A stretch of DNA of 29,300 nucleotides from Stephanodiscus triporus (Eukaryota; Bacillariophyta; Thalassiosirophyceae; Thalassiosirales; Thalassiosiraceae), in assembly GCA_036939755.1 (NCBI GenBank), contig JALLAZ010000040.1:1-29300 (forward strand). Direction: 5' to 3'. The stretch's first letter is position 1. Every line of letters begins with the position of its first letter. Made by a program: the position numbers and the translations under genes. Shown here one piece after another: positions 9,373 through 26,098 of this stretch. The notes beneath the pieces are model-generated. The model was not told where the DNA came from. It did no database searches and saw only the letters and a list, made by a program, of their open reading frames with translations.

Positions 9373-12347
9373 ATGGCGGTCATCGCGACGATCCAACTCC
9401 GCGACGGCGGCAAGAGATTGCGATTGCCCCCGTGGATGAACGTCCTCCACCTTCCCGAGTACGGCATTCGGGCCGCCGATCCGGCGGGGGGGGCGACGGG
9501 GGTCCGGGGGGGGAAGGACGCGGCGACGGCGACGGCGACGGCCACGGCGACGGTCGAGCCCGGCGCATCCGTCCGTCGGCGATTTTCGTCGTCGAACGGG
9601 CGCGGGACGACGGCCGTCCATCCTCCTCCCCCCCATGCGAACGATGCCCGCGGCTTCGGCTTCGGCTTCGGCGGCGGCGGCTTCGGCGGAGACCTCGACG
9701 CGCCGCGGGTGTCGGCGTCGAATCGCAGGGCCAGGAAGGACGTCGCCCTCGACAGCCTGTTCCCGCCCACCGCGCGCGAAATTCGAGGGAGCGCCAGGTA
9801 CCTGTCGGAGGCGGGCGCGCGGTTGGTCATGCGGGAGGTGGACGATTGCGCGCGGCACTGCCTGAGATATTCCGCCAACCCGAGGAAGCGCGGGAGGTGG
9901 GGGGGGGGGGAAGACACCTCTCCCTCGTACGACGGCACGAGGATGGCGGATGAAGACGGGAGAAGGAGGTGGGGGTGGAGGGAGGTCGATCGGGGAAAAA
10001 ACCTGGCGACTCTTGCCGAGGAAATACGCGACTTTTTTCACATGTTCCAACCCGACGACGACCACGAGGACGAAGGGGTCCGCGAAGGAGGAGAAGACGC
10101 GGGCGCGTCGCATCGTGCTGCCGCGGACCCGCCATCGCCAACGAGGCTACGGACGGAAACCATTCGCCCGACGGACCGACGCGACGCCCTACGCGATCTG
10201 CTCCTCCCCGAGAGGTACGACCCCACCCGCCTGCCGATGGTGTGCGTCAAATGCTATCCCAACGTGTTGGATCGAGCGGAGATCGTCGTGGGCCTGGCAT
10301 CGGACCTATCGAGGAGGAGGACGACGACGACGACTGCGCGATGCGGCGGCAACGCGACGACGCGTCCTCCTCCGAGCGACTCGCCTCGTGTCATGGCGGA
10401 GGAGGCGACGGCGGCGGCGGCGGCATCGGGAGCGGGTGTGGAGGAGGAGGAGGAGGAGGAGGAGGGGGGGGGGAAGTTCGAGGGGAAATCGCCGTGCGTG
10501 TGCGTGGTGCGATCGACCTCCGACCTCGTTCGGCAGGGCCACGCGATCGCTGAGGTTTTATCCCAATGCATATCCAACGACCCGGGGGGGGAGGACTTCG
10601 CGTCGGAGCTCCAACGGCAGCGGAAGCGAATGAGGTCCCATCACCACGGCGGCGCGAATGACGGGGCGTTGTTCAAGTCGATTCGGTCTTGGACGCGATC
10701 GCTGGTGGATTGGGCCGGATACACAGATACCTTCGATTCGGTCATCGTGATACTTGAGGTGAGTGTGCCTTACATTGCCGTTCGTTGCCTTGCTGCAAAA
10801 TGTAATGGCTGCGTCATTTCAGCCTCATCCTTCGATGCGCGTACGCGCCCCATTCCGCAAAACGCAAAAATCAACTACCATACCTCGAAAACGAAGGACC
10901 CCGAAAAGATTCCCTCTCCGTCGTTGGACGCGTTCTTCACCACGCTGGCATCTCTTCGATCGAACGACGGGGTCCCGATTTGCTTGGTCGTGATCGATGG
11001 GACTCCGGGCGGGCTGGGCGATCGACTGTCTCGCCTGCGCGATCCGTCCCTCCGGGGTGCTTCGGGCGGCGTGGCCGCGCGAGATCTGCTCGTGCCATTG
11101 CCAGAAGTTCAGTTAGGTATGTTTGCTCAGGATGAATTTCTCGCGTGGTTGATATCAACCGTCAATGCTCACCTCTGCCTGTTTATACTTGGTGCATGTT
11201 TAGACCTATTCATGGCTAGATTATTCTCGAGTAAGTGCATCCCGACGTTCCTCTGGACCGACCATCGCCTGTTGAAGCACATCCAGGAGGTATTCCGTGA
11301 TTACGACAATTCCATCGTGTCCGTTGCGACGAAACTGAAGTCGGAGTTACGTCGTTATTTCGCGTGTGAGTCATGCAAATGTTCGATCGAACGAGACTGC
11401 CCCCCGACATCAAATCGTCGATACTACTTGCTCATGATATTTAATCTGATGTAAATATCTTTGCAGGTGCTCCCGTCACGGTCGAGTCACTACTGAACTG
11501 CGAAAAATTTACAACCATGCATGAGTCGCGAATCAAGTTTATATATGGAGATGAATACTGTAGGAAAATGTTATCATCGCATTTTTCCTATTTCGCTCCG
11601 ATGACTATGACATTAAATAAAGGTACAAATGATGGACATATCCCTGATTTGTTGTGGAGGATACAAATGTCATACCTGTCTCATCAGATATGTCAGAGGG
11701 TCAGTAATATTTTCAATATATCTCCTCTCGCTGAGATTGGAAGAGTGGCTGGTGCTGAGTTTAGTACAAATGCTCATATGCGCGAACTTCTTCTCCTACT
11801 CTGTAATGTGAGGCGTAAGGTTACAACGTGGAAAGACTCTTCTCCTGATCGCTCGGCTTCATTATGTAGGAAATTGAATGAATGGATTGTTCTTGTTGGA
11901 AAATTCGCTTTGGTTGATTCATCTTCCAACGTTGCCATGGCTAGGGCCCTCGTTGAAAACATAATGGCATGGGCCAGTGGAAACTTGGCAGCGCGAATGA
12001 AATTGGAAGTGTCACATGCAGTACAGCCGCGAAGAGATGTAGCCAAGGCGTTGTGCGCGCCGATGCCCAATGCTCTGACGCCCTGCTCCCTCGCTCATGC
12101 ATGCCGCATTGCTTTCCGGGTCTTTCAATCGCGTGTGATGTCGCTTGCAGAGTGGCACGAGAAGTATTTTGATGTAGTTATAGATCAAGATGGACAAAAG
12201 GCTGGTACGAGGAATACGAATGAAGCTGCATTTTTCTTCGCAGTGTATGAATTAGTGCACATGGGCTTCGTTAGGAAGCTGATCACAGGCAAAAGGAAGG
12301 AGGAAGCCTATGAAAAGATGGCCATAATATGGGGAAATGGAGGATAA
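9373..12347 (+). CDS. ORC3: Origin recognition complex subunit 3
   Basis: Four exons, 9373-10758, 10897-11116, 11204-11365 and 11467-12347, joined by GT-AG introns of 138, 87 and 101 bp, give a continuous 882-residue frame. Recognition: SWTRSLVDWAGYTDTFDSVI followed over the first splice by ILEDPEKIPSPSLDAFF and VPICLVVIDG, matching the ORC3 AAA-like core. The C-terminus has SLAHACRIAFRVFQSRVMSL and AAFFFAVYELVHMGFVRKL ending in IIWGNGG, the ORC3 winged-helix end. ORC3 is a subunit of the six-protein complex that marks replication origins and loads the MCM helicase. The protein is longer than human ORC3 (711 residues) because the N-terminal half carries Gly/Phe, Thr/Ala and poly-Glu runs coded by GGCTTC, GCGACG and GAG repeats. 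Unspliced reading reaches 11454 in the first frame but loses the conserved C-terminus, which supports the introns. Confidence 0.88.
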
Positions 12348-12771
12348 GCGCCATTCTTATCTGCATACTCAACTAACATATATTATACTTCGATGGAATT
12401 GCTGTGCTCACGCTTCTAGGTGCTATGGCCAAGAGTAGTATATCGCACGTACTATTTTTAATAACTACCTTATTCGCCCCACACAGGCAGAGGAAAGGAT
12501 AACTACCTACTTCTCTGCGGCTAACCTGATACAATGCTACTCGCTAAGCTATCTGAAGATGCTTCTGGTGTTTTTTGCTTACTTGGCGGTAGAAGAATAG
12601 TGGCAATTCAACTTTGCCTCCATGTTTTTGGATATCAAGGGACTGCTTGAATGCTCTCCCCCAAATCAGTGTACGTTTCAATAACGTAATTAGAAGTCCT
12701 TAGAATAGAGACTGCTTACTCTCACTTCACTCCCTCCTCCCTGTTAAACCGATGTCGATGTCCTCGCATTA
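12348..12771. other. Spacer between ORC3 and the plastid protein gene, holding an RDR gene piece
   Basis: Apart from the minus-strand RDR segment at 12583-12673, no gene is visible here. This may be a tail-to-tail junction of ORC3 and the polymerase gene in one haplotype or locus copy. Confidence 0.45.
12583..12673 (-). pseudogene. C-terminal exon piece of the RNA-dependent RNA polymerase gene
   Basis: Bases 12619-12673 are identical over exactly 55 bp to 18373-18427, the last assembled bases of the polymerase gene. Reading on past the shared block in the polymerase frame gives GGKVELPLFFYRQ, then CAA/GTAAGC, a good splice donor at 12582. With the shared SLDIQKHG this makes SLDIQKHGGKVELP, matching the conserved RDR C-terminal signature (avDfpKtG..v.iP). 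On the other side of the shared block (12674-12699) the frame stays open only to a TAA at 12700-12702. This is either the true 3' continuation of the polymerase gene, misplaced by the assembler, or a relic of a second copy. I favour the former for the part below 12619. Confidence 0.6.
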
Positions 12772-14564: not shown

Positions 14565-16068
14565 GCAAGAAAATGAGATTAACCAGTACAAGTACAACAA
14601 TATGTAAATTGATGGCTACAGTTTGTTTGCCATATGCACCTCTTTTTGCCGGAGAAATTAGATACCGACCCTTACTATCACCCACCTGCTTCGTTTTTTC
14701 AACTCGCTTTCTCATTTCTGTTTCTCTGTCGCGCATCCTCGTTTGCTTCTATCTTGCCTGCGTCATGCCGTTACTGCCAAATCATAGGCTTTCTGACCCG
14801 CTGAATTACGCTGTTGACATTCATCACGGCAATACCATCATCGGAAAGGCAAACGGGGACTGGAGCAGGACGGAAAAGACCACGATTTCTCTTGGCAGGA
14901 GGCAGGCGGCCAAGGTCAGAGCCATATGATGGAACTGAATCATGGCATCGTCGACAGATCCATCATCGTCGAAATCGAGGGAGGTGTTGACGTCGTATTC
15001 ATGTTCATGGTTGTGATTGCTCTCTTTGGGATATGCTACAATAAAGAAAGAAAGTATGAAAATATGTTCGACATTCTGTGATAGCGTCACCGTTTGGGGC
15101 AACGGGGGCAGTCAATGATATGAACAATGTCACATTCATAGTTCATACTAGGTAACGATTGATAGCGTCAAGAAATTTCAATAGTTATACTTAGCCAACG
15201 AATATCACAAACTGACTGTTCCACTCTGTATATTTGAGGAGCATGCAAAGCGTAAAAAATATTGGAAGGAGGACGTCTTTCGTGACCTTCTTCATTTTTT
15301 CCTTACCGTTGCCTTGAGCAGGTCCCCCTTCCAAGAATGAGCAATTTCATTTCATCCCCTTTCCTTTGTACCAATATGCACCATCGGTCCCCCTTCAGTC
15401 CGCTATTGGAAATCTCATCACCGTGAGAAAATAAAAGTTTTACCATCCTCGGTCTTGAGTTTTCTGCATGACCACAACATGTAGTAGACGATGTCGAGTC
15501 GATGTTGACGGCAACGTTGTGGCGCTCTGGAAGCACGCAGGCAAGGCTTGCCCCCCCGAAATTTCGTGCAAAAAAATACAATGACCTCTCTACTCTCGCG
15601 CCATCCAAGAATAAAATATGATGCAGCTCTCTTCTTAAGCCCCCCCCCCCCGGCCCACGCCGCCAGCCCCTCGCTCCTTCCTTCCTCCTCACCACCATAC
15701 CACCCAACGAGCATCTTGGGCTTTTTTGGCGCGAACAAAAAAATCCAGTTTTTTCTCCCGCCACCGCGGGAGGGAACATCGCACGCGTAAAAATAGTTCC
15801 GTAAGCTAGTAAATTGATGCCTCCGATCTAGTTCAGCGCGATGGATGCCATTTGCTGGGATCGGGGAAATCCTTTGGCCATTTTTAAGGGGAGCTGCGCA
15901 ACACCCTAATGAAGCCCCCTTCCGATTTGGCCAAAGGATTTTCAGCATGGCGACCAGTTATGAATATATTTCACTCAAACACCTTGCAGATCACCTGATT
16001 TACCTCGCATCATCATCTTCCTTCTGGTTCAGCCTGAACTCCAACTATGACTCCACCTATCTAAACGA
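14565..16068. other. Gene-poor stretch before the transposon-like gene
   Basis: No convincing gene. Contains pyrimidine-rich sequence (14640-14760), a C-run near 15641-15652, an A7 run near 15748-15754 and an imperfect hairpin (15867-15941). Several 80-170 codon frames on both strands are of skewed composition and match nothing I recognise. Confidence 0.4.
15867..15941. repeat. Inverted repeat / hairpin, 14-bp perfect stem
   Basis: AAATCCTTTGGCCA (15867-15880) is exactly complementary to TGGCCAAAGGATTT (15928-15941). Inside the loop, AAGGGG and CCCCTT can add a second short stem. The structure may be a remnant of a small inverted-repeat element, or a transcript hairpin. Confidence 0.6.
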
Positions 16069-16074
16069 TTGAGT

Positions 16075-18371
16075 ATGACACCAAAAGACTACAAGTGCCT
16101 CCTCGTGGCTGCCGACCTTGCCCACTTTCACAAAAGATGGGGTTTCTCCATCAAGATGACTAAGTTGAAGCTCTTCCTTGAGGGGCATCGCTTCGTGACA
16201 ATCAACTGTGATGGCATGTTTGAAGTCGATACAAAGAAGTTGGACTTGAATGTGTTCATCCACGGAACGCCAAAAGTGAATACGGAGCATTTTTACTTCC
16301 TTCGGATTGGTGTACTCAATGCCTCTTCTCCAAGAAAAATTGAGATGCAGAAGGATCCAAATGATGGTCGAATGATAACTACTCCCCCGAGGTTGGGTGG
16401 GCTGCATCTCCAGCAAAGCATCTTTCGAAGATTGATCAAATCAATATTGTGGAACCACTTTCTTGATAATGATTCGGAGGAGGGCAAGGAGGTGGTTGAA
16501 TCCTCTAGCAATGAGGAAGATGACAATGTGGTATCCCCTCCCCCCCCCCCTCCAGAGCGGCCATCATCGGTCGCTGCTAGCATGATTCCAGTGACGAGTG
16601 CTACCCTTGTTGATAATGATACATCTACAAAATATCCCCATCTATCTCAAGCACTGGGTGATGAAGATGGTTCCTTTGATCCAGCCGACCCTTCTGTTCG
16701 CAAATCAATGCAAGGATTACTGCAAGAAATCAATCATCTGTTGAGTACTAAATATGAACTCAATGTACGAGCGTTATCGTCCAATAAGCCTATATCATAT
16801 GTTCGAGTGCCAAGGACAAAGAGTGATAATGCCTTCACAAATTCTAAAGAATGGCTCGACTCCGCCATCAATATCTCTGGATCAGCGTATCGAATGTCTA
16901 AGCACCTCATCAAATTTTATAAAGATTCATTCCTTGCCGCCTGCGAGAAAGAAGGCATACCAGTCATCAAGCCAATGACTGCCACGGCATTCCAAGCCAT
17001 GTTGAATGCAGGAAAGGTAACTGGAACAGGGGAAAGAGAGTTGAAGAAGCATCTCAGCTCCCATCTTGGTAAAGGCTTTTGCCCTACCCGACGAAGCGTC
17101 CATATGTTATCAGAAGGTCATGGTGTTGTTCATTATGGCAGCAAGCAATTTACGTATGATAACAAAGAGAAGTCAGAATTTGTCGAATGGACAGAGAAGA
17201 ATATTGATGAAGAGATTAAAATTTATTTACAGAGGCATCTGACGAGCAAGTCAATAAAGCCATGCGATGTATTGCGTGTTCAGATGGTCGTTGGTGGTGA
17301 TCATGGCGACACCGCTTTCCAGTTCGGGGCATCGTTGTTGGTCGAACTAGCTGACGATAGCAACGTCAGCTTCGAGGTATCTGTTTGCGAACTGATCTGT
17401 CGCAAAGATACTGGACGTTTACTAGAAGAAACAATACTGGAGAGATTAACGAGTGGACTAGAAATTATTTCTACTTTTGAATTACATTTGTTCGAGGATG
17501 AGCTTGGCTCTATCGTTGCAGAGTTTCGTCGCCCGGACCAAAATCAAAACCCAGCAGAAATGCCTACCCACACACCCATCACCGAAGTCTTCGTCACGGG
17601 CGACTTGGCATACCAAGCCATGGTACTGGGGAAAGAGTCGATGGCCGGGCACTGGTGCATGTGGTGCAAGGCCAACAAGCACCAATTTTTTGGTGACAGC
17701 AAATTGTGGACAATGGAAGATCTCGTGAGATGTGGCGGGGATGCAGAAAAAGCAAAACAAGACCCATTGCTTGGTGTTAAAAAAAACCATGGTGGCCGCT
17801 TATACCTTTGTCGCACTACGTGGTTCCCCTTCTCCATTGCGAAATCGGGATAGGGAATCAACTGTTAGAGAAATTGTGGGCAATAATAAATGAGCACATC
17901 GCACATTTCTTACCGGGGGAAGAAGCGATTCGCGCATCTATCCCTGTCCTAAAAAATATCGTCGTTGACACAACCAAAGAAAGGGGCGAGTGGGATGAAT
18001 CTGTTGAGGGGGGGAAAACAGAAGATATTGATGCATGCTGTGGCTGCGTACAACAAGGGACGTGAGATCAGTTTGGCTATCAACAATGAACATGAGGAAT
18101 CAACTCACCTCATCAATTCATCTACATTGAAAGACCTTGACGATATAAGCAATTGTTTTGTCAACAAGCTGAAGCGAGCACACAGTACGTTGGCTGTCCA
18201 GCAGGACAAATTGAAGGTGATGTGGGCGGCAAAAGGGAAAACAGAACATAGTGTTGATACGAAGCTTTTTAAGGTGTTGAAGACGATCGGGGAGGAGTGA
18301 AGTTCTTACCATGGGGGGTCTTTAAATGGGAAAGACATTAAAAAGGTTATGAACAATGTGGGTCATATTTT
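16075..18371 (+). pseudogene. Transposon-like gene, broken by frameshifts at two homopolymers
   Basis: The frame from 16075 runs to a stop at 17853, but the conserved reading switches frame at an A8 run (17779-17786): PWWPLIPLSHYVVPLLHCEI and GIGNQLLEKL continue in a second frame. It switches back near the G7/A4 tract (18008-18018), continuing AVAAYNKGREISLAINNEHE to a stop at 18300, and YHGGSLNGKDIKK follows in another frame. Recognisable blocks are VGGDHGDTAFQFG, VTGDLAYQAMVLGKESMAGHWCMWC and LHCEIGIGN. This pattern (GGDxG, GDxxF/Y with a WCxWC pair, then LHxxxGI) occurs in a widespread, poorly characterised class of eukaryotic mobile-element proteins. I cannot name the superfamily. The Asp and Glu in these blocks could form a DDE-like catalytic set (inference). 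No terminal inverted repeats were found. Codon use is AT-richer than neighbouring genes. Confidence 0.55.
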
Positions 18372-18372
18372 N
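18372..18372. other. Assembly gap (single N)
   Basis: The 55 bp immediately right of this N (18373-18427) are identical to 12619-12673 and the identity ends exactly at 55 bp, as expected of a contig end at a graph node of k=55. Adjacency of the transposon-like gene and the polymerase gene across this N is therefore not established. Confidence 0.85.
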
Positions 18373-21300
18373 TCCATGTTTTTGGATATCAAGGGACTGC
18401 TTGAATGCTCTCCCCCAAATCAGTGTATTTTGGTCATTAACACCGTAAACTTTGCGTGCATCCTTGTACTTGCGGGAGAGCACTTTAATGATTTTATCAA
18501 AGTCACTAGAACGCACTAGGAAATCTGTCACCTCGTCAATCCAAAAGCCACTCACATCATCCCATTCAGGTAGCTCAGAGAGCTTGCTCTGATTTGAATA
18601 CCAGTACTCCCAAACCAACAACTTTGAATCCACCTTAGCCTTATCAAGAGGCTCCCACACATCATTGCCATCGTCATAATGAGAGTAAACCTTGATGGTT
18701 CCATCCTTTGCCGCCCTGTGTTTGATGATTTTCACAGGGACAGGGTCTGGAAGAGTTTTTAAGTGGTCCTTCAGCCATTTAAAGTCAGCATCCCGATTCA
18801 TATTCTCATGTTCCTGTTTGTTATTTCTGACATACCAAAGAAGCAAGTCTGGGGGCTTGCTGGACATACCGAACATTTGTCGAATCTTTTTCAGAGAGTA
18901 CCATTCTATTGAGCCCTCCAATTCCCATTGTAGTTTAAACTCAATTTGTGACGACCTCTTGTTGCGCATGATAGGACGATGTGAAAGCACATGGGATATA
19001 GAGAATCTGCCATCGAATATGTCCTCTCTTGTTAGTTCAGCGGTCTCTTTGTTACAGCCATTCTTTGACAGCTCAACGAGATAAGTGTCTGGTGCTTCCG
19101 CGAGTTTCTTAACCACCACTGCTTCATAGCCATTATACTCAAACTCATAACCAACATTCTCATCTGAGAGGAAATTGAGCTCCATTGTTCTGGTATCATT
19201 CGCCATGATGGCTTCAAGAAGTTCAGTGTCCCAAAAGGCAGCAAACCTGTCCCCGTCACAATCACTGTCATTGATTTTAGGAGGCAAGGGTTCACCTTTG
19301 ATAGAAAATACCACGGCGCCAAATTTCATTGAAGCTAAGAAGTTGTAGGACTCTTCTGGGATGTCGTTGTAACATGCAACTCTAACCACTTTCCCATCAT
19401 CGCCTTCTGTGCAAGGTGACTGCAACAAAGGAGGAATGCATAAAGTGAAAGTGGGTCAATTAACTCTTTAAAAAGGAAGGTGACACACCTGCTAATGACA
19501 AACTTACTCTCGTGAGAAAAACGTTTTGAGGAAGCTGTTCCCCCATGCCAGTCAAAAACACGCAACCCGCAGGCAAAGAACCAGTCGGGTCGCTGACTCC
19601 TACAAGTGTTGAGTGGTGGTTTCTCTGCTGATTCCATTGGTTGAACTCATTGAAATCTGTGGACGAAGTGTCAAACAATGCTGCACTGAAGAGTTTACAT
19701 TTTAGACAAACTATAAAACATATCTACTTACATTGATCAAGGAGAACTGGACTGACACCCGAAGCAATCAAAACATTCTTAATAAAAACAATGTCATCCT
19801 CCCTAACATTCAGCTTTTTCTTCTGTTTATCAGTTGGGTCTTTCATGTCATCGTTAATAAATTTTTCCATGGTGTAGCAATTTTCAGAGGGGAATATTTG
19901 GGTGATAACGAGTACAACTTTGGCGTGCATAGGATCAGCCGAACTGCTTCTTTCCACCTTGATCATTGATTCAGGGATTTCAATCTTCTCAATACCGGGT
20001 TTGATCACTAGCATTCCTTTTGCTATTCCAAATTTTGAGGGAGAGAAGATACGCACTTGAATAGCAATAGATCTAAACACCCTTCTCACAGAGAGGCAAA
20101 ACAGAAATTGGTAAAACATAATGGGTGATAAGTGATAACGCATGTAAAGAAGAGGTTTTCAACTCACCTGATACAATCCATCCCAAGAAGGTCATAAAAG
20201 AGTGATTCTGGTATGAATCCACAACCTTGATGACATTCATTGATGTCATCTATTACCTCAAATTTGCTAGGGGGTAGATCGTGAATCAACATATCTTTCT
20301 TGTTTGGTGCTCGACAAGCAGTGCTGACCAGTAACTTAAATCGTGCTGCTACCTTCCATGGTCCAAATTCATACGCTAGCTTCTCAAAGTTGGCTATCCC
20401 AGCAAGAGCTGATTTTAAGTCAATTCTATCTAGACCTGGTCCAGAAACAACAAGGTAAAAGGTTTTGAACTTCGGCTGCCCCACACCATCTATTACGGGG
20501 CCCTTGCCGCCCTTTTTATATTCACTGTAGATCATTTCATACCTCATGCAATGTTCTATTATTACAATTTGAGGAGGGTCATCTGTTATCGCTGTTTCGC
20601 GTACGCAAATGCGGTCTTTGAAGATGACTGACAAGTAGCTGGGATTTGTGTCTCTCCTCATCACCCAGGGAGTCACATATTCTGCTAGTGTGGATGGTGT
20701 TGACCCTTTCTTTACTCTTTTTGGCTCTCCCTTGGGGGGAGGCTTTGGAGCGTACCAATCCTTCTCTTGTACTGCACCACCCTTAATACCATCCTGGGGC
20801 TCACCATCTTCATAGCCGTTACTAAAAAGTGATTCATCATCATCTGATTCACTCTTCGGGGGGGGCTTCGGAGCGTAGCAATCCTTCTCTTGTACTGCAC
20901 CACCCTTAATACCATCCTGAGGCTCGTCATCTCCTTCGCCGCTACTAAAAAGTGTTAGTATATACGTAGTAGTATAAGGTACTTAGACCACACTTCTACT
21001 CCTATCCTCTCATGCCCTCCATGNGTAGTATAAGGTACTTAGACCACACTTCTACTCCTATCCTCTCATGCCCTCCATGGCGAGGCCCGGAGTCCTACAA
21101 AAAGTGATCCGGCATCGTCTGATTCGCTAACGTCTCTCAAACTTGTTTCTCCATTCAAGTATTGGCTGTTACTGCCATCCTGAGGCTCGTCATCTCCTTC
21201 GTCGCCACCGCTAAACCGAGATTCATCATCATCTGCCTCATCATACCTGCTATCTTGCAACGCGCTCCTCTGTTGTAATACATTGTCAGGTATGCCCTCC

Positions 21301-22731
21301 CCGCCATTAGTATCCCTCTGCTGTGATGTAAAATCAAGTATGCCGTCACTAACATCTTCCGACCTTGTTGCTATCCCATTCATTTGGATTTGACCGTTAC
21401 TGCTATCCTGCGATTCACTATCTTCGCTGTCACCAAAAATAGACTCATCATCATTTGCATCATCGCGCTGTCTCGGCGATGTATATGCATTTGACACAGA
21501 TAGACGGTAATAATCTTCCGGCGGACATTTTCTGCTACCAAACTGCTGTTGATCAGTACCATTGGTATCATAGTCGTCGAATACTTCAGGAAGCCTTCGT
21601 AGTGTCATTAAGCTCAAGTCCTCTACATCACCATCCGAATACCTGCATCGATAAATTTTGCCTTTGGCTGTAAAAAGGTGGCAGGGACTCTTGCAAATAA
21701 GTGAATGTATCTTCTCACCAAAACAAGACAAATGAAGGGGGGACGGCAATATCAGACTCACCAGCCCCAGGCCGGATTTCTATGACTTCCCCAGTAAACC
21801 ACCCACAATGAAAACGCTTGCGAAATTTATACCCAATCTTAATGTCTTTTCCACTCGCTCTCTTTGCCCTTTTCTTACATGGTGTTACAACTTTAGCCCT
21901 GACATGATTATGTCGTAGTCGTTTGAGGGAGGGTGAGAGTGGCGGATGATGCGACGACGACCGAACATGCCGTATGCCTCCATCGTTGTCGCCACCATCT
22001 GGTTGTTTCGACGGTTGCGTTTGCGACAGTCGTTCCTTCTGCCTCGAGCGAGTGTACACAGGTCCATCGATCATTGACAGAATCAGTTGCGACTGCTGCG
22101 ATTCTATCTCTCGGGAACGATGCCTTGAGTCGCTAGCGAGACCTTCGCAGAAATCGACCGTAGCGGACGGTGGATTACTACTCCTTGAACACTCCCCGTC
22201 ATCGTCATCATCGCGAAAGCCACCGCCATTCCCACGGCGAAGCTCATCCAGCGAGAGGAGTGTTCCATCGGTGCCCATGGCCAAATGACGAGGAATGCCA
22301 CACACCATGCATTTATTCCGACGATTCGAGTTGAGGAGAGTACACTGAATGCAGGACCAGTCCGTCAAGGGTCTATGACGATCCTTTTTGGATCCTATCC
22401 ATGTGGGAGGATACCGTTTCAGGGGTAGTTCGGAGGATGGGTTCCGTTCGGCTGCGCACTCCTTCGAGGACGAATTTGCTCCTCGATCCATATCGTTGCT
22501 GTGGTCGCGCGAGCCCGTCGTGTTCGCATCGCTCGAACCGACGCCCGCATCATCGTTCGACTTGGCACCATCGATCGCCGATGATGTGGCGTCATCTGAG
22601 AAGTTGCGCTTAGCACCTGACCTTTTAGTGATGTCTGGTTCATCTTCATCATCACTGCACATCAAGCCGATGATAGATGTTGCTGTTCCTGCTCCCATTA
22701 AAGCCGACGTTGATTCTTCTTGGTTGCTCAT
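18373..22731 (-). CDS. RNA-dependent RNA polymerase (cellular RDR type) with RanBP2 zinc finger, Tudor-like and chromo-like modules; 3' end missing
   Basis: Exons on the minus strand: 22731-21762, 21667-21099, about 20944-20168, 20072-19732, 19680-19508 and 19419-18373; all junctions are canonical and in phase except the second (see the gap at 21024). About 1,290 residues are visible. In order: an acidic N-terminus; a RanBP2 zinc finger (124-146, C-x2-C-x10-C-x2-C, DWSCIQC...CMVCG); a Tudor-like module split by intron 1 (FHCGWFTGEVIEIRP / KIYRCRYSDGDVEDLSL); acidic DDESxF repeats; then the polymerase, with QVRIFSPSKFGIAKGMLV, IPESMIKVE, GVSDPTGSLPAGCVFL, RSPCTEGDDGKVVRV and the catalytic DCDGD (19249-19263, DxDGD of the RDR family). 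Cellular RDRs copy RNA into dsRNA for Dicer/Argonaute silencing. After DCDGD comes an insertion with an SH3/Tudor-like and two chromo-like segments before SLDIQKHG. The stop codon is not in this contig; the continuation appears to lie at 12583-12618. Confidence 0.87.
20736..20958 (-). repeat. 123-bp tandem duplication coding for a 41-residue acidic linker unit
   Basis: Two near-identical direct copies offset by 123 bp (for example GAGCGTA at 20748 and 20871) encode units starting SESDDDESLFSNGYEDGEPQ and ending YAPKPPPK. Degenerate relatives (DDESIFGDSEDSESQD, DDESRFSGGDEGDDEPQDG) occur in the preceding exon, so the linker grew by repeated in-frame duplication, most recently here. Confidence 0.88.
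20969..21079. other. Assembly gap (N at 21024) flanked by an exact 55-bp direct duplication
   Basis: 20969-21023 and 21025-21079 are identical, and the identity stops exactly at 55 bp. This is best read as two overlapping contigs (k=55) joined with an N without merging; the real sequence probably has one copy. It lies in an intron of the polymerase gene (donor GTAGGA at 21098; TACTAAC branch-point-like sequence at 20952-20958 upstream of TTTTTAG). Splicing at these sites leaves the frame off by one base, so the exact exon boundary here is uncertain. Confidence 0.85.
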
Positions 22732-24235: not shown

Positions 24236-25909
24236 CTATTGCTCATTCATCATACGAGGGAGCATATTCACCTTGGGCATGCTGGAGAACCACAAGTAGT
24301 CGGCGATTTTCGACTGGTACGTCCAATTATTGGGCGCCGTGCCGATTTCCAAACGCAGCCACTTGCTCTCCGACAGCGTCTCCTCGGCGCTCGGGTTCAG
24401 CAGTATCGTCGTGACGGCCTCGTCGTCGACGAGGCTCTCCGGGTTCAGATACTTGCATACACGCGGGACGCGGCCGTTGATCCCGCCGAGGAAGCGCACG
24501 TCGGCGACGGGGGCTATCGTGACGACCAACGAGTCCGGACGCGACGTCGCCCACCTCGCGATGGCCGTCGCGCACGCCTCGTGTACGAGGATGCGCTCGG
24601 CGAAGAAATTCCCCTGCTCCGCCTTCGTCGAGGCCTCGTCTTTCGCCGTTGGGGACGACGACGCGACGAAGTCCTTAAGCAGGCTCTTGTCCGTGTACAA
24701 CTTGAATTTCGGCTCCTGCGTCAGCGCGATGAACCCGGGCGCGTCCGCGACGTACGTCCCCCGTCGAGTCGGGTCGAGCGACTGCAATCCGCCGCCGCGC
24801 ACGACCCTCAGGTCGGACGGCTCCGGCGCCAACGCCAACAGCGCGCATCCCCTCCTCTTCGCGAATCTCAATATCGGCAAGTGACGCTCGGCGAGGACGC
24901 CGTCCGCGCCCAGCGCGATCAGCGTCTCCACGACCTTCCTCTCCACGTCGTACTCGTCCAACGACGACATCGTCGTCGTCGCGTCCTCCTCCCCTTTCGA
25001 TAACAGGTAATAATCCAGCGCGTCCTGGGCGCTGCGGGGCGCGAAGGCCAGCCCGATCGCCGTGTTCCCCGACCGTTCCCTGGGCCTGCATATGTCCGCG
25101 AGTAGTCCCACCGCCAGCGAGGCGTCGGCGTTCGTCTCGCCGGCCACCCTCTCCGGCGACGCCGTGTGGGTGTCGTCGAAGTTCGCGCCCAGGAAGACGA
25201 AGCTCTGGTAATTCGCCCCCGACCGCGACGACGACGTCGACCCGTCGTCCCCCGTCGTCATGCCGACGACGCGCTTCGCCGCGTCCAACGATCCGAACAC
25301 CGCCCTGTTCATGAAATTGTTGAGGTTGACGTCGTCCTCGACCACCGGTCCCTTCGGCGTGCCCTTGCCCATGCCGAGGCCCTTGAGTATCGCCGCCTCC
25401 CTCGACGCCCTGTAGGGTATCAGGGAGGGTGGGATCGTCGAGTCGACGAGGTACGCGGTGCACCGCCTGGCGGGAACGTACGAGCCGCCGTTGGACATGG
25501 ACGCGAGTCGCGAGCCGAACGGATTGCTGAACGACGCGATGGGAGGGAGGGCCGACGCGGACGAGACGGGGAGTAGGCCGACCCCGCCGAGGGCTGCGAC
25601 CGATGCGGCGGATCGACGGAGGACGCACCTGCGACTGACCGTAGTCGTCGTAGTCGGCCACGACGGAGGCGCGGGCATCCCACCGTCCTCGGGGGGCGGC
25701 GAGAGATGATCCGAATCTATGTTTCCGCGTCGCTCGTCCTTCGAATAGAGCGAAGACGACGACTCGACGACGACGACATCGACATCGACGCGATGATGTT
25801 GTTGCGATCGCCGAAGCTCCTGGGATAATCGAGGCGGCGCGAACGCATCGACCGCGGTGAGCACCACCAGCAGCGATGCGAGGAGCGATGACGAGCGCGG
25901 AGGCATCAT
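24236..25909 (-). CDS. Plastid (thylakoid lumen) ChaN/DUF399-like haem-binding-superfamily protein
   Basis: Single exon, 557 residues, from ATG 25909 (an adjacent ATG lies at 25906). The leader has three parts: a signal peptide (LLASLLVVLTAVDAFAP) with the AFAP plastid-import motif, a Ser/Arg-rich transit region, and a second twin-arginine-like signal (SRRCVLRRSAASVAALGG ending SSASA), which indicates passage into the thylakoid lumen. The mature part contains FVFLGANFDDTHTASPERV, HLPILRFAKRRGCALLALAP, RGGGLQSLDPTRRGTYVADA and a late SLVVTIAPVADVRFLGGING. It resembles plant plastid proteins with a ChaN-like DUF399 domain (Tiki/haem-binding uptake superfamily). A haem- or iron-related role is possible, but the histidine ligands of bacterial ChaN are not clearly conserved. 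The reverse-strand frames are shadows of this GC-rich gene. Confidence 0.78.
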   Translation of the reverse strand: MMPPRSSSLLASLLVVLTAVDAFAPPRLSQELRRSQQHHRVDVDVVVVESSSSLYSKDERRGNIDSDHLSPPPEDGGMPAPPSWPTTTTTVSRRCVLRRSAASVAALGGVGLLPVSSASALPPIASFSNPFGSRLASMSNGGSYVPARRCTAYLVDSTIPPSLIPYRASREAAILKGLGMGKGTPKGPVVEDDVNLNNFMNRAVFGSLDAAKRVVGMTTGDDGSTSSSRSGANYQSFVFLGANFDDTHTASPERVAGETNADASLAVGLLADICRPRERSGNTAIGLAFAPRSAQDALDYYLLSKGEEDATTTMSSLDEYDVERKVVETLIALGADGVLAERHLPILRFAKRRGCALLALAPEPSDLRVVRGGGLQSLDPTRRGTYVADAPGFIALTQEPKFKLYTDKSLLKDFVASSSPTAKDEASTKAEQGNFFAERILVHEACATAIARWATSRPDSLVVTIAPVADVRFLGGINGRVPRVCKYLNPESLVDDEAVTTILLNPSAEETLSESKWLRLEIGTAPNNWTYQSKIADYLWFSSMPKVNMLPRMMNEQ

Positions 25910-26098
25910 CGTTTTTTTTTTCTCGGTTGATGGTATCCTGTATCGTGCAAGGATGATGGTTATCACGCGATCGCCCTTTGCCCACTGCCACCCAAGCCTG
26001 TCGCCACTGAGGCTGAGGAGAAAAGATGATGTGCGGACGACGAGCGAGCGCCATTTGATTCGAGCCTCAGTAGTTGGGAGTCCGTACTACAGTAAAAG
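25910..26098. promoter_or_regulatory. Short divergent promoter region
   Basis: Only 189 bp separate the divergent start codons of the plastid DUF399-like gene and the SPF45-like gene, so their promoters must overlap. A T-run (25912-25921) lies next to the minus-strand start. Confidence 0.4.

Follow-up and report, generated by a model that had tools for sequence, protein, structure and literature searches.

Gene structure at the locus

The window analysed here, a 29,300-nucleotide stretch of DNA from the diatom Stephanodiscus triporus (contig JALLAZ010000040.1, or C40 in the searched assembly of 21.65 Mb and 1324 contigs), carries on its (-) strand a gene for an RNA-dependent RNA polymerase (RDR) with additional modules on both sides of the catalytic site. 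The open reading frame starts at ATG 22731 and runs through six exons with GT donors and AG acceptors. Exon 1 (21762-22731, (-), as for all features of the gene) encodes the N-terminus, a SUMO-interacting-like motif, a zinc-finger-bearing block and the first part of a Tudor domain, and stays open up to the donor GTGAGT at 21761; exon 2 (21099-21667; acceptor TTTTTACAG, donor GTAGGA at 21098) encodes the remainder of the Tudor domain and acidic repeats. The N-terminal part of the RDR core follows the final acidic repeat in exon 3 (20168-20916) and the core continues through exon 4 (19732-20081, with motif QVRIFSPSKFGIAKGML) and exon 5 (19508-19656) into exon 6 (18373-19419), which contains SPCTEGDDGKVV, the catalytic DCDGD, an insert module and the beginning of the C-terminal helices. 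The first intron (21668-21761) splits the Tudor domain, and the second (20917-21098) is a repeated intron-like element. Of two possible acceptors for exon 3, CAG next to 20916 is in frame, and the nearer TTTTTAG next to 20944 is out of frame with exon 2 by one base; the shift may be a sequencing error, or the downstream acceptor may be used. Provided that the acceptor is CAG at 20916, the spliced exons together with the displaced C-terminus described below form a single frame of 1302 amino acids (aa) free of internal stops, and the spliceable one-strand exons proposed in a first-pass annotation of this DNA are confirmed.

The window contains exactly two Ns, at 21024 (within the second intron) and at 18372 (at the end of exon 6), and each adjoins an exact 55-base duplication (20969-21023 = 21025-21079, and 18373-18427 = 12619-12673). 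Because both duplications have this same length, we infer that both Ns are contig or scaffold joins, equal 55-base lengths being typical of contig ends left by a k-mer assembler; a transposon insertion into the RDR gene with a 55-base target duplication was rejected, as the two duplications are equally long and each borders an N. Beyond the N at 18372 the frame runs into a spurious C-terminus, NMTHIVHNLFNVFPI and a stop (18322-18371, (-)), which has no counterpart in the relatives designated P0001 and P0002. The other copy of the 55-mer continues the frame to GKVELPLFFYRQVSKKHQKHLQIA and a stop (12544-12618, (-)), and this end aligns with the C-termini of P0002 (GGKVKLPLAYYREVKQSLKHLVDIVQ) and P0001 and is resembled by those of two paralogs in the same genome, on contigs C1063 and C730. 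The true gene end therefore lies within the window, displaced to 12618-12544 by the scaffold join, and an end at 18322 was rejected. The lower bound of 18373 first assigned to the gene is merely the base adjoining the second N.

The polymerase core and the post-catalytic insert

The three polymerase motifs noticed at first sight were all located, with QVRIFSPSKFGIAKG at 20059-20015, SPCTEGDDGKVV from 19419 and DCDGD at 19263-19249; both the D-x-D-G-D signature of the second double-psi barrel and the first-barrel motif Q-[VI]-R...KG[MV] are present, with an RDR fold. PF05183 scores 23.8 bits in a six-frame search and 23.3 bits for exon 6 alone (cut-off 23.8), and the scores of 12 of the 14 relatives scanned range from 38.9 to 112.3 bits, the other two (P0006 and P0011) stopping before the motif and giving no match. 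In profile comparisons the relatives match RDR2 (E 3.6e-12) and QDE-1 (E 7.4e-5), and a model of the relative P0008 matches both in Foldseek (E 1e-10 to 1e-14). The check by structure prediction proposed in the first-pass annotation was thus borne out for P0008 and not for the window's own exon 6, whose model (mean pLDDT 61.8, nine aligned sequences) mostly lies below 50 in its catalytic part, as expected for a truncated barrel. The predicted RDR catalytic fold is well supported.

The Pfam score at or just under its cut-off, the need for a downstream acceptor at the exon 2/exon 3 junction and the presence in the same stretch of a dispersed repeat whose copies are partly decayed could also indicate that the gene, as one RDR paralog among several, is decaying or inactive, is kept as a scaffold and looks intact by chance. 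We consider this very improbable, as the long frame has no internal stop, the catalytic aspartates of DCDGD are intact, the C-terminal motif is conserved and the gene belongs to a well-supported clade of eight sequences (see below).

The catalytic barrel is separated from the C-terminal helices by an insert of ~190 residues (18565-19158) that had been overlooked at first. Sequence and structure prediction together show that it is predicted to fold as one Tudor-like barrel (19006-19158) followed by two chromodomain-like barrels (18814-19005 and 18589-18744). The three-stranded barrel with a C-terminal helix that defines the chromodomain fold is present in the model, but PF00385 gave no match for the two window segments and 15.3 bits for P0001 (cut-off 25.1); for this reason the barrels are described as having a chromodomain-like fold, not as a filed chromodomain. 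In Foldseek, the exon-6 model is matched best by chromodomains 2-3 of cpSRP43, and chromoshadow domains score like chromodomains. The Tudor-like reading of the first barrel is based on the order of its strands and on SETDB1 Tudor domains, which match it weakly in Foldseek (E 0.01 to 0.1, prob 0.25-0.66); the VIA-align comparison covers mainly residues 221-279 and includes no row for this barrel, and P0010 has an insert that lacks it. A second copy of the insert (35% identity) is found at 10166-10519 (-) of contig C1301, at the contig end, where apparently another RDR paralog is cut.

The Tudor domain, acidic repeats and relatives

The Tudor-like module first seen in exons 1 and 2 is a PTM/DIR17-type Tudor domain (21591-21837, interrupted by intron 21761-21668). 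The joined exons score 31.8 bits against PF21743 (cut-off 27.2), the match covering positions 1-45 of 48, compared with 17.5 bits for exon 2 alone, and this difference supports the splice between them. Seven other matches above the cut-off occur in the same genome, on six contigs. The Tudor domains of the relatives were found by alignment, with Pfam scores of 16.9 bits for P0006 and 17.2 bits for P0024 and no call for P0001 and P0011. In P0023, a separate protein of Skeletonema marinoi, a PTM/DIR17 Tudor domain is combined in a single chain with Myb and methyl-CpG-binding domains.

The acidic linker is likewise repetitive as initially described: it contains four DDxxS[LRI]F motifs, where none of 5000 shuffles of that stretch gave more than one, and a looser pattern detects similar repeats in P0001, P0002, P0003, P0006, P0011 and P0024. 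Near their N-termini P0001, P0002 (by eye), P0004, P0006, P0011 and P0024 carry an IDLTL/IDLSL-acidic SUMO-interacting-like motif. Motifs of this class have acidic residues behind a hydrophobic [VI]-x-[LIV] core. The corresponding IIGLMCSDDEDE of the window (22674-22639) is degenerate, did not align with the motif of the relatives in MAFFT and fits a pattern, defined post hoc, that recurs in 111 of 20000 shuffles; it may be due to chance.

Among the nearest proteins with named sources are P0004 (S. triporus), P0006 (an MMETSP transcript) and P0009 (Nitzschia), most others being metagenomic; P0005 bears the prefix CCRYP, which we take to be that of Cyclotella cryptica genes. In P0001 a single polypeptide contains the Tudor domain, the acidic repeats, the complete RDR and the insert. 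The same order is found in P0006 and P0011 as far as the middle of the core and in P0024 as far as its start, the last 130 residues of P0024 matching the beginning of the RDR (E 2.9e-19 with P0001, 6.9e-9 with the window). Given this shared order, and with two of the relatives (P0006 and P0024) carrying names of MMETSP transcripts, we conclude that the fusion of Tudor domain, RDR and insert is real. A misjoin of two genes at the N at 21024, which would separate the Tudor domain from the polymerase, was rejected, because the order recurs in P0001, P0006, P0011 and P0024 and homologous acidic repeats (family D3) flank this N on both sides. For the Tudor domain and the polymerase, this answers the refuting condition named in the first-pass annotation, in which exons 22731-21099 would belong to a separate gene; for the zinc-finger block a join error is considered below. 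The search for the domain order in other proteins thus recovered the Tudor-repeats-RDR part of the architecture initially proposed; among the RDRs, the zinc finger was seen only in the window.

In the unconstrained tree the window falls in a clade of eight with P0001-P0006 and P0011 (support 100/100), as sister to P0005 (87/91). On this tree the insert requires three changes, and a single change suffices in 38% of 200 bootstrap trees. When all insert-bearing sequences were constrained to one clade, with partial relatives inside, the constraint was not rejected (p-AU 0.58); a first test (p-AU 0.0007) was set aside because four relatives, either partial or ending before the insert is reached, had been left out of the constrained group. 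The sequences are therefore compatible with one origin of the insert but do not establish it. Other RDRs carry different N-terminal additions, including a chromodomain in P0013 (54.7 bits) and, weakly, P0020 (15.1 bits), and KOW-like repeats in P0014 and, weakly, P0019. Three of the 20 relatives, all insert-bearing RDRs, have more WG/GW dipeptides than the maximum of 500 shuffles (P0005, 22 vs 10; P0007, 8 vs 7; P0010, 12 vs 11); repeats of this kind resemble Argonaute hooks.

The zinc finger and its surrounding block

A RanBP2-type zinc finger had been reported in exon 1 and is indeed present as WSCIQCTLLNSNRRNKCMVC (22300-22359; W-x-C-x2-C-x10-C-x2-C), which also fits the longer pattern W-x-C-x(2-4)-C-x3-N-x6-C-x2-C. 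It passes the PF00641 cut-off of 27 bits narrowly as a 34-aa segment (27.4 bits), with 20.6 bits, below the cut-off, for the whole 322-aa exon. RNA-type fingers, such as those of ZRANB2, have a stacking aromatic residue and an arginine pair, and the ubiquitin-binding NZF type has a Thr-Phe/Met surface. The features of the present finger are mixed, with the N..RR of the RNA type but no aromatic residue after N and the T-L of the NZF type, and its nearest solved chains are of both kinds (RBM10, 2mxv, E 6.6e-4; TAB3/TAB2 NZF, E ~0.03-0.07; ZRANB2, E 0.054).

The finger lies in a block (21937-22605, residues 43-265) whose best matches, P0021 and P0022 (938 and 944 aa), have two fingers each and no RDR. 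Identity with P0022 is 56% over residues 74-265 and 47% over residues 43-205, and the four 60-residue windows wholly inside the block have a GC content of 0.51-0.60, compared with 0.39-0.51 elsewhere. The finger pattern occurs in none of the 20 RDR relatives, at least six of which (P0003, P0005, P0012, P0016, P0017 and P0018) start within the core or close to it. Since the block is 56% identical to P0022, GC-richer than its surroundings and has its finger only here among the RDRs, it was probably captured from another gene in this lineage, as judged from sequence comparison. A viral source was addressed in one viral_contigs scan, in which none of four pattern matches was confirmed.

The same observations could be explained if the polymerase, Tudor domain and insert were one gene and the block an assembly or amplification chimera, the real protein running from an acidic N-terminus through the Tudor domain, acidic repeats and RDR to the insert, as in P0001. 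The junction is seen in no independent sequence, and the contig carries two other join scars. Even so, we find a chimera unlikely: 22731-21080 holds neither an N nor a 55-base duplication, the reading frame is intact across both block edges, and P0022 as query matched only the window in the assembly (which may be incomplete). At only ~56% identity, and with one finger against two, the block also appears to have diverged in place. We therefore regard the zinc finger as a probable part of the fusion.

Genome context

The genome contains further RDR genes on C1063 and C730, a Dicer-like frame on C649 with two RNase III matches (found by PF00636, PF14622 giving no Dicer match in this genome), an Argonaute-like exon on C2 with a PIWI match of 26.8 bits (cut-off 28.9) and matches to the SUMO family. 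The RDR on C1063 (L020:5455-8316) appears by eye to have two N-terminal KOW/Tudor-like units (YVQVAK...ARGKI...), for which Pfam gives a weak KOW4_SPT5 match of 11.3 bits.

The intron-like element at 20917-21098 (-) runs from the 5' splice site GTAGGACTCC to the branch point TACTAACA in alignment with its copies. Six further copies occur in the genome (85-95% identity; C1143, C1314, C413 and C959), and an upstream flank ending in AACCT is common to four copies; the element possibly belongs to an introner-like diatom family or is a piece of a larger repeat. Rfam gave no match for the window or for four loci bearing the element. Elsewhere in the window, a 600-aa frame at 16051-17853 (+) matches no Pfam family over its cut-off, has 12 genome matches including itself (five with stops) and is probably an uncharacterised mobile element. 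The protein encoded at 24236-26086 (-) matches PF04187, a haem-binding domain of the ChaN/Tiki type, with 28.7 bits and has a start that by eye resembles a plastid-targeting sequence.

Discussion

The sequence and models suggest that built-in adaptors bring this enzyme to particular chromatin or RNA, and the reading that we favour, with moderate confidence, is that of a nuclear-type diatom RDR that carries its recruitment adaptors in the same chain and makes double-stranded RNA for silencing. In the putative mechanism, the adaptors would tether the polymerase to chromatin, to RNA or to a partner protein where the template is synthesised, the RDR would copy this template into double-stranded RNA, and the Dicer-like and Argonaute-like proteins of the genome would process this into small RNAs. 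The simplest interpretation of this anatomy is a polymerase kept in place by adaptors of its own. The recruitment to marked chromatin or to the site of RNA synthesis proposed in the first-pass annotation is partly supported by these results, with chromatin as a target that is favoured, not shown.

Several observations weigh against this reading. The transcripts cited above come from relatives and not from this very gene, the exon 2/exon 3 junction and the C-terminus span scaffold joins, and the nearer exon 3 acceptor is one base off-frame. The RDR fold comes from a model of P0008 instead of the window's own chain, and its Foldseek superposition on RDR2 and QDE-1 is poor (TM <=0.34, rmsd 10.7-14.8). 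Among the modules, the Tudor domains of the relatives fall under the Pfam cut-off or are not called, the zinc finger occurs in no relative (several do not extend far enough to reveal one), and exon 1 used as a query among 1384 candidates, restricted to proteins of 0.55-1.75x the length of the 338-aa query, gave none at E <= 0.01. By eye, and compared with Rhino and HP1, the three-residue aromatic cages for methyl-lysine look incomplete, the first chromodomain-like barrel having F and W and the second only Y. The WG/GW excess of P0007 and P0010 amounts to one count, among 25 rows tested, and the PIWI match stays below its cut-off.

It is also possible, if doubtful, that the modules do not read chromatin, the finger binding RNA or ubiquitin and the barrels binding peptides as in cpSRP43 and chromoshadow domains, so that the enzyme would act in a ribonucleoprotein or Argonaute complex, for example in cytoplasmic post-transcriptional or antiviral silencing. 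The finger is indeed nearest to RNA-binding RBM10 and ubiquitin-binding TAB2/3, the Foldseek ranking of the exon-6 model agrees with such peptide-binding barrels, and the WG/GW-rich stretches of three relatives could bind Argonaute. Against this stand the company that the PTM/DIR17-type Tudor keeps in P0023, the N-terminal chromodomain of P0013 and lysine-rich stretches (KKRAKR, by eye) that would fit a nuclear protein.

RDRs with an extra N-terminal domain are known from oomycetes, Dictyostelium, Hydra and Nematostella, in which, according to the available text of PMC4791657, the addition is a DEAD-box helicase and not a set of readers, with no insert behind DxDGD mentioned there. For diatoms, the accessible parts of PMC3155517, PMC3145265 and PMC4247016 report one to three RDRs in Thalassiosira pseudonana and Phaeodactylum, along with Dicer-like and Argonaute-like genes and small RNAs on methylated transposons; these RDRs of related species probably belong to the same family as the present enzyme, and Tudor, chromo and zinc-finger modules go unmentioned in those parts. 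Among the matches listed in the open literature (titles, abstract starts and passages, with supplements and subscription papers outside), no RDR with Tudor or chromodomain modules is described. The present enzyme is a candidate for how diatoms aim silencing at methylated transposons with matching small RNAs, as these appear in the accessible text of PMC4247016. With a mark reader and an RDR in one chain, it would offer a compact system for the module-by-module study of small RNAs.

Of the solved enzymes, plant RDR2 (maize 7w82, Arabidopsis 7roz/7eu0) gives a stronger profile match than Neurospora QDE-1 (2j7n, 7y7p-7y7t), by the E values given above. To our knowledge RDR2 has no Tudor domain, zinc finger or post-catalytic chromo insert, and we know of no fused reader modules in QDE-1. 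Plants and fission yeast link the chromatin mark to the RNA-copying enzyme by separate proteins: plant RDR2 reaches chromatin in trans, via Pol IV with CLSY and SHH1, and in the RITS/RDRC system of fission yeast the chromodomain reader Chp1 is coupled to the RDR Rdp1. Here, by contrast, chromodomain-like barrels and the polymerase lie in one chain. By analogy, and speculatively, the enzyme might be a one-chain equivalent of the RITS-RDRC loop or of SHH1-Pol IV-RDR2, in which binding of a mark or chromatin protein by the barrels beside the active site would both anchor the RDR and switch polymerisation on; on this view, diatoms would have repeatedly re-equipped such RDRs with KOW repeats, chromodomains, WG/GW hooks, SUMO-interacting motifs and a captured zinc finger.

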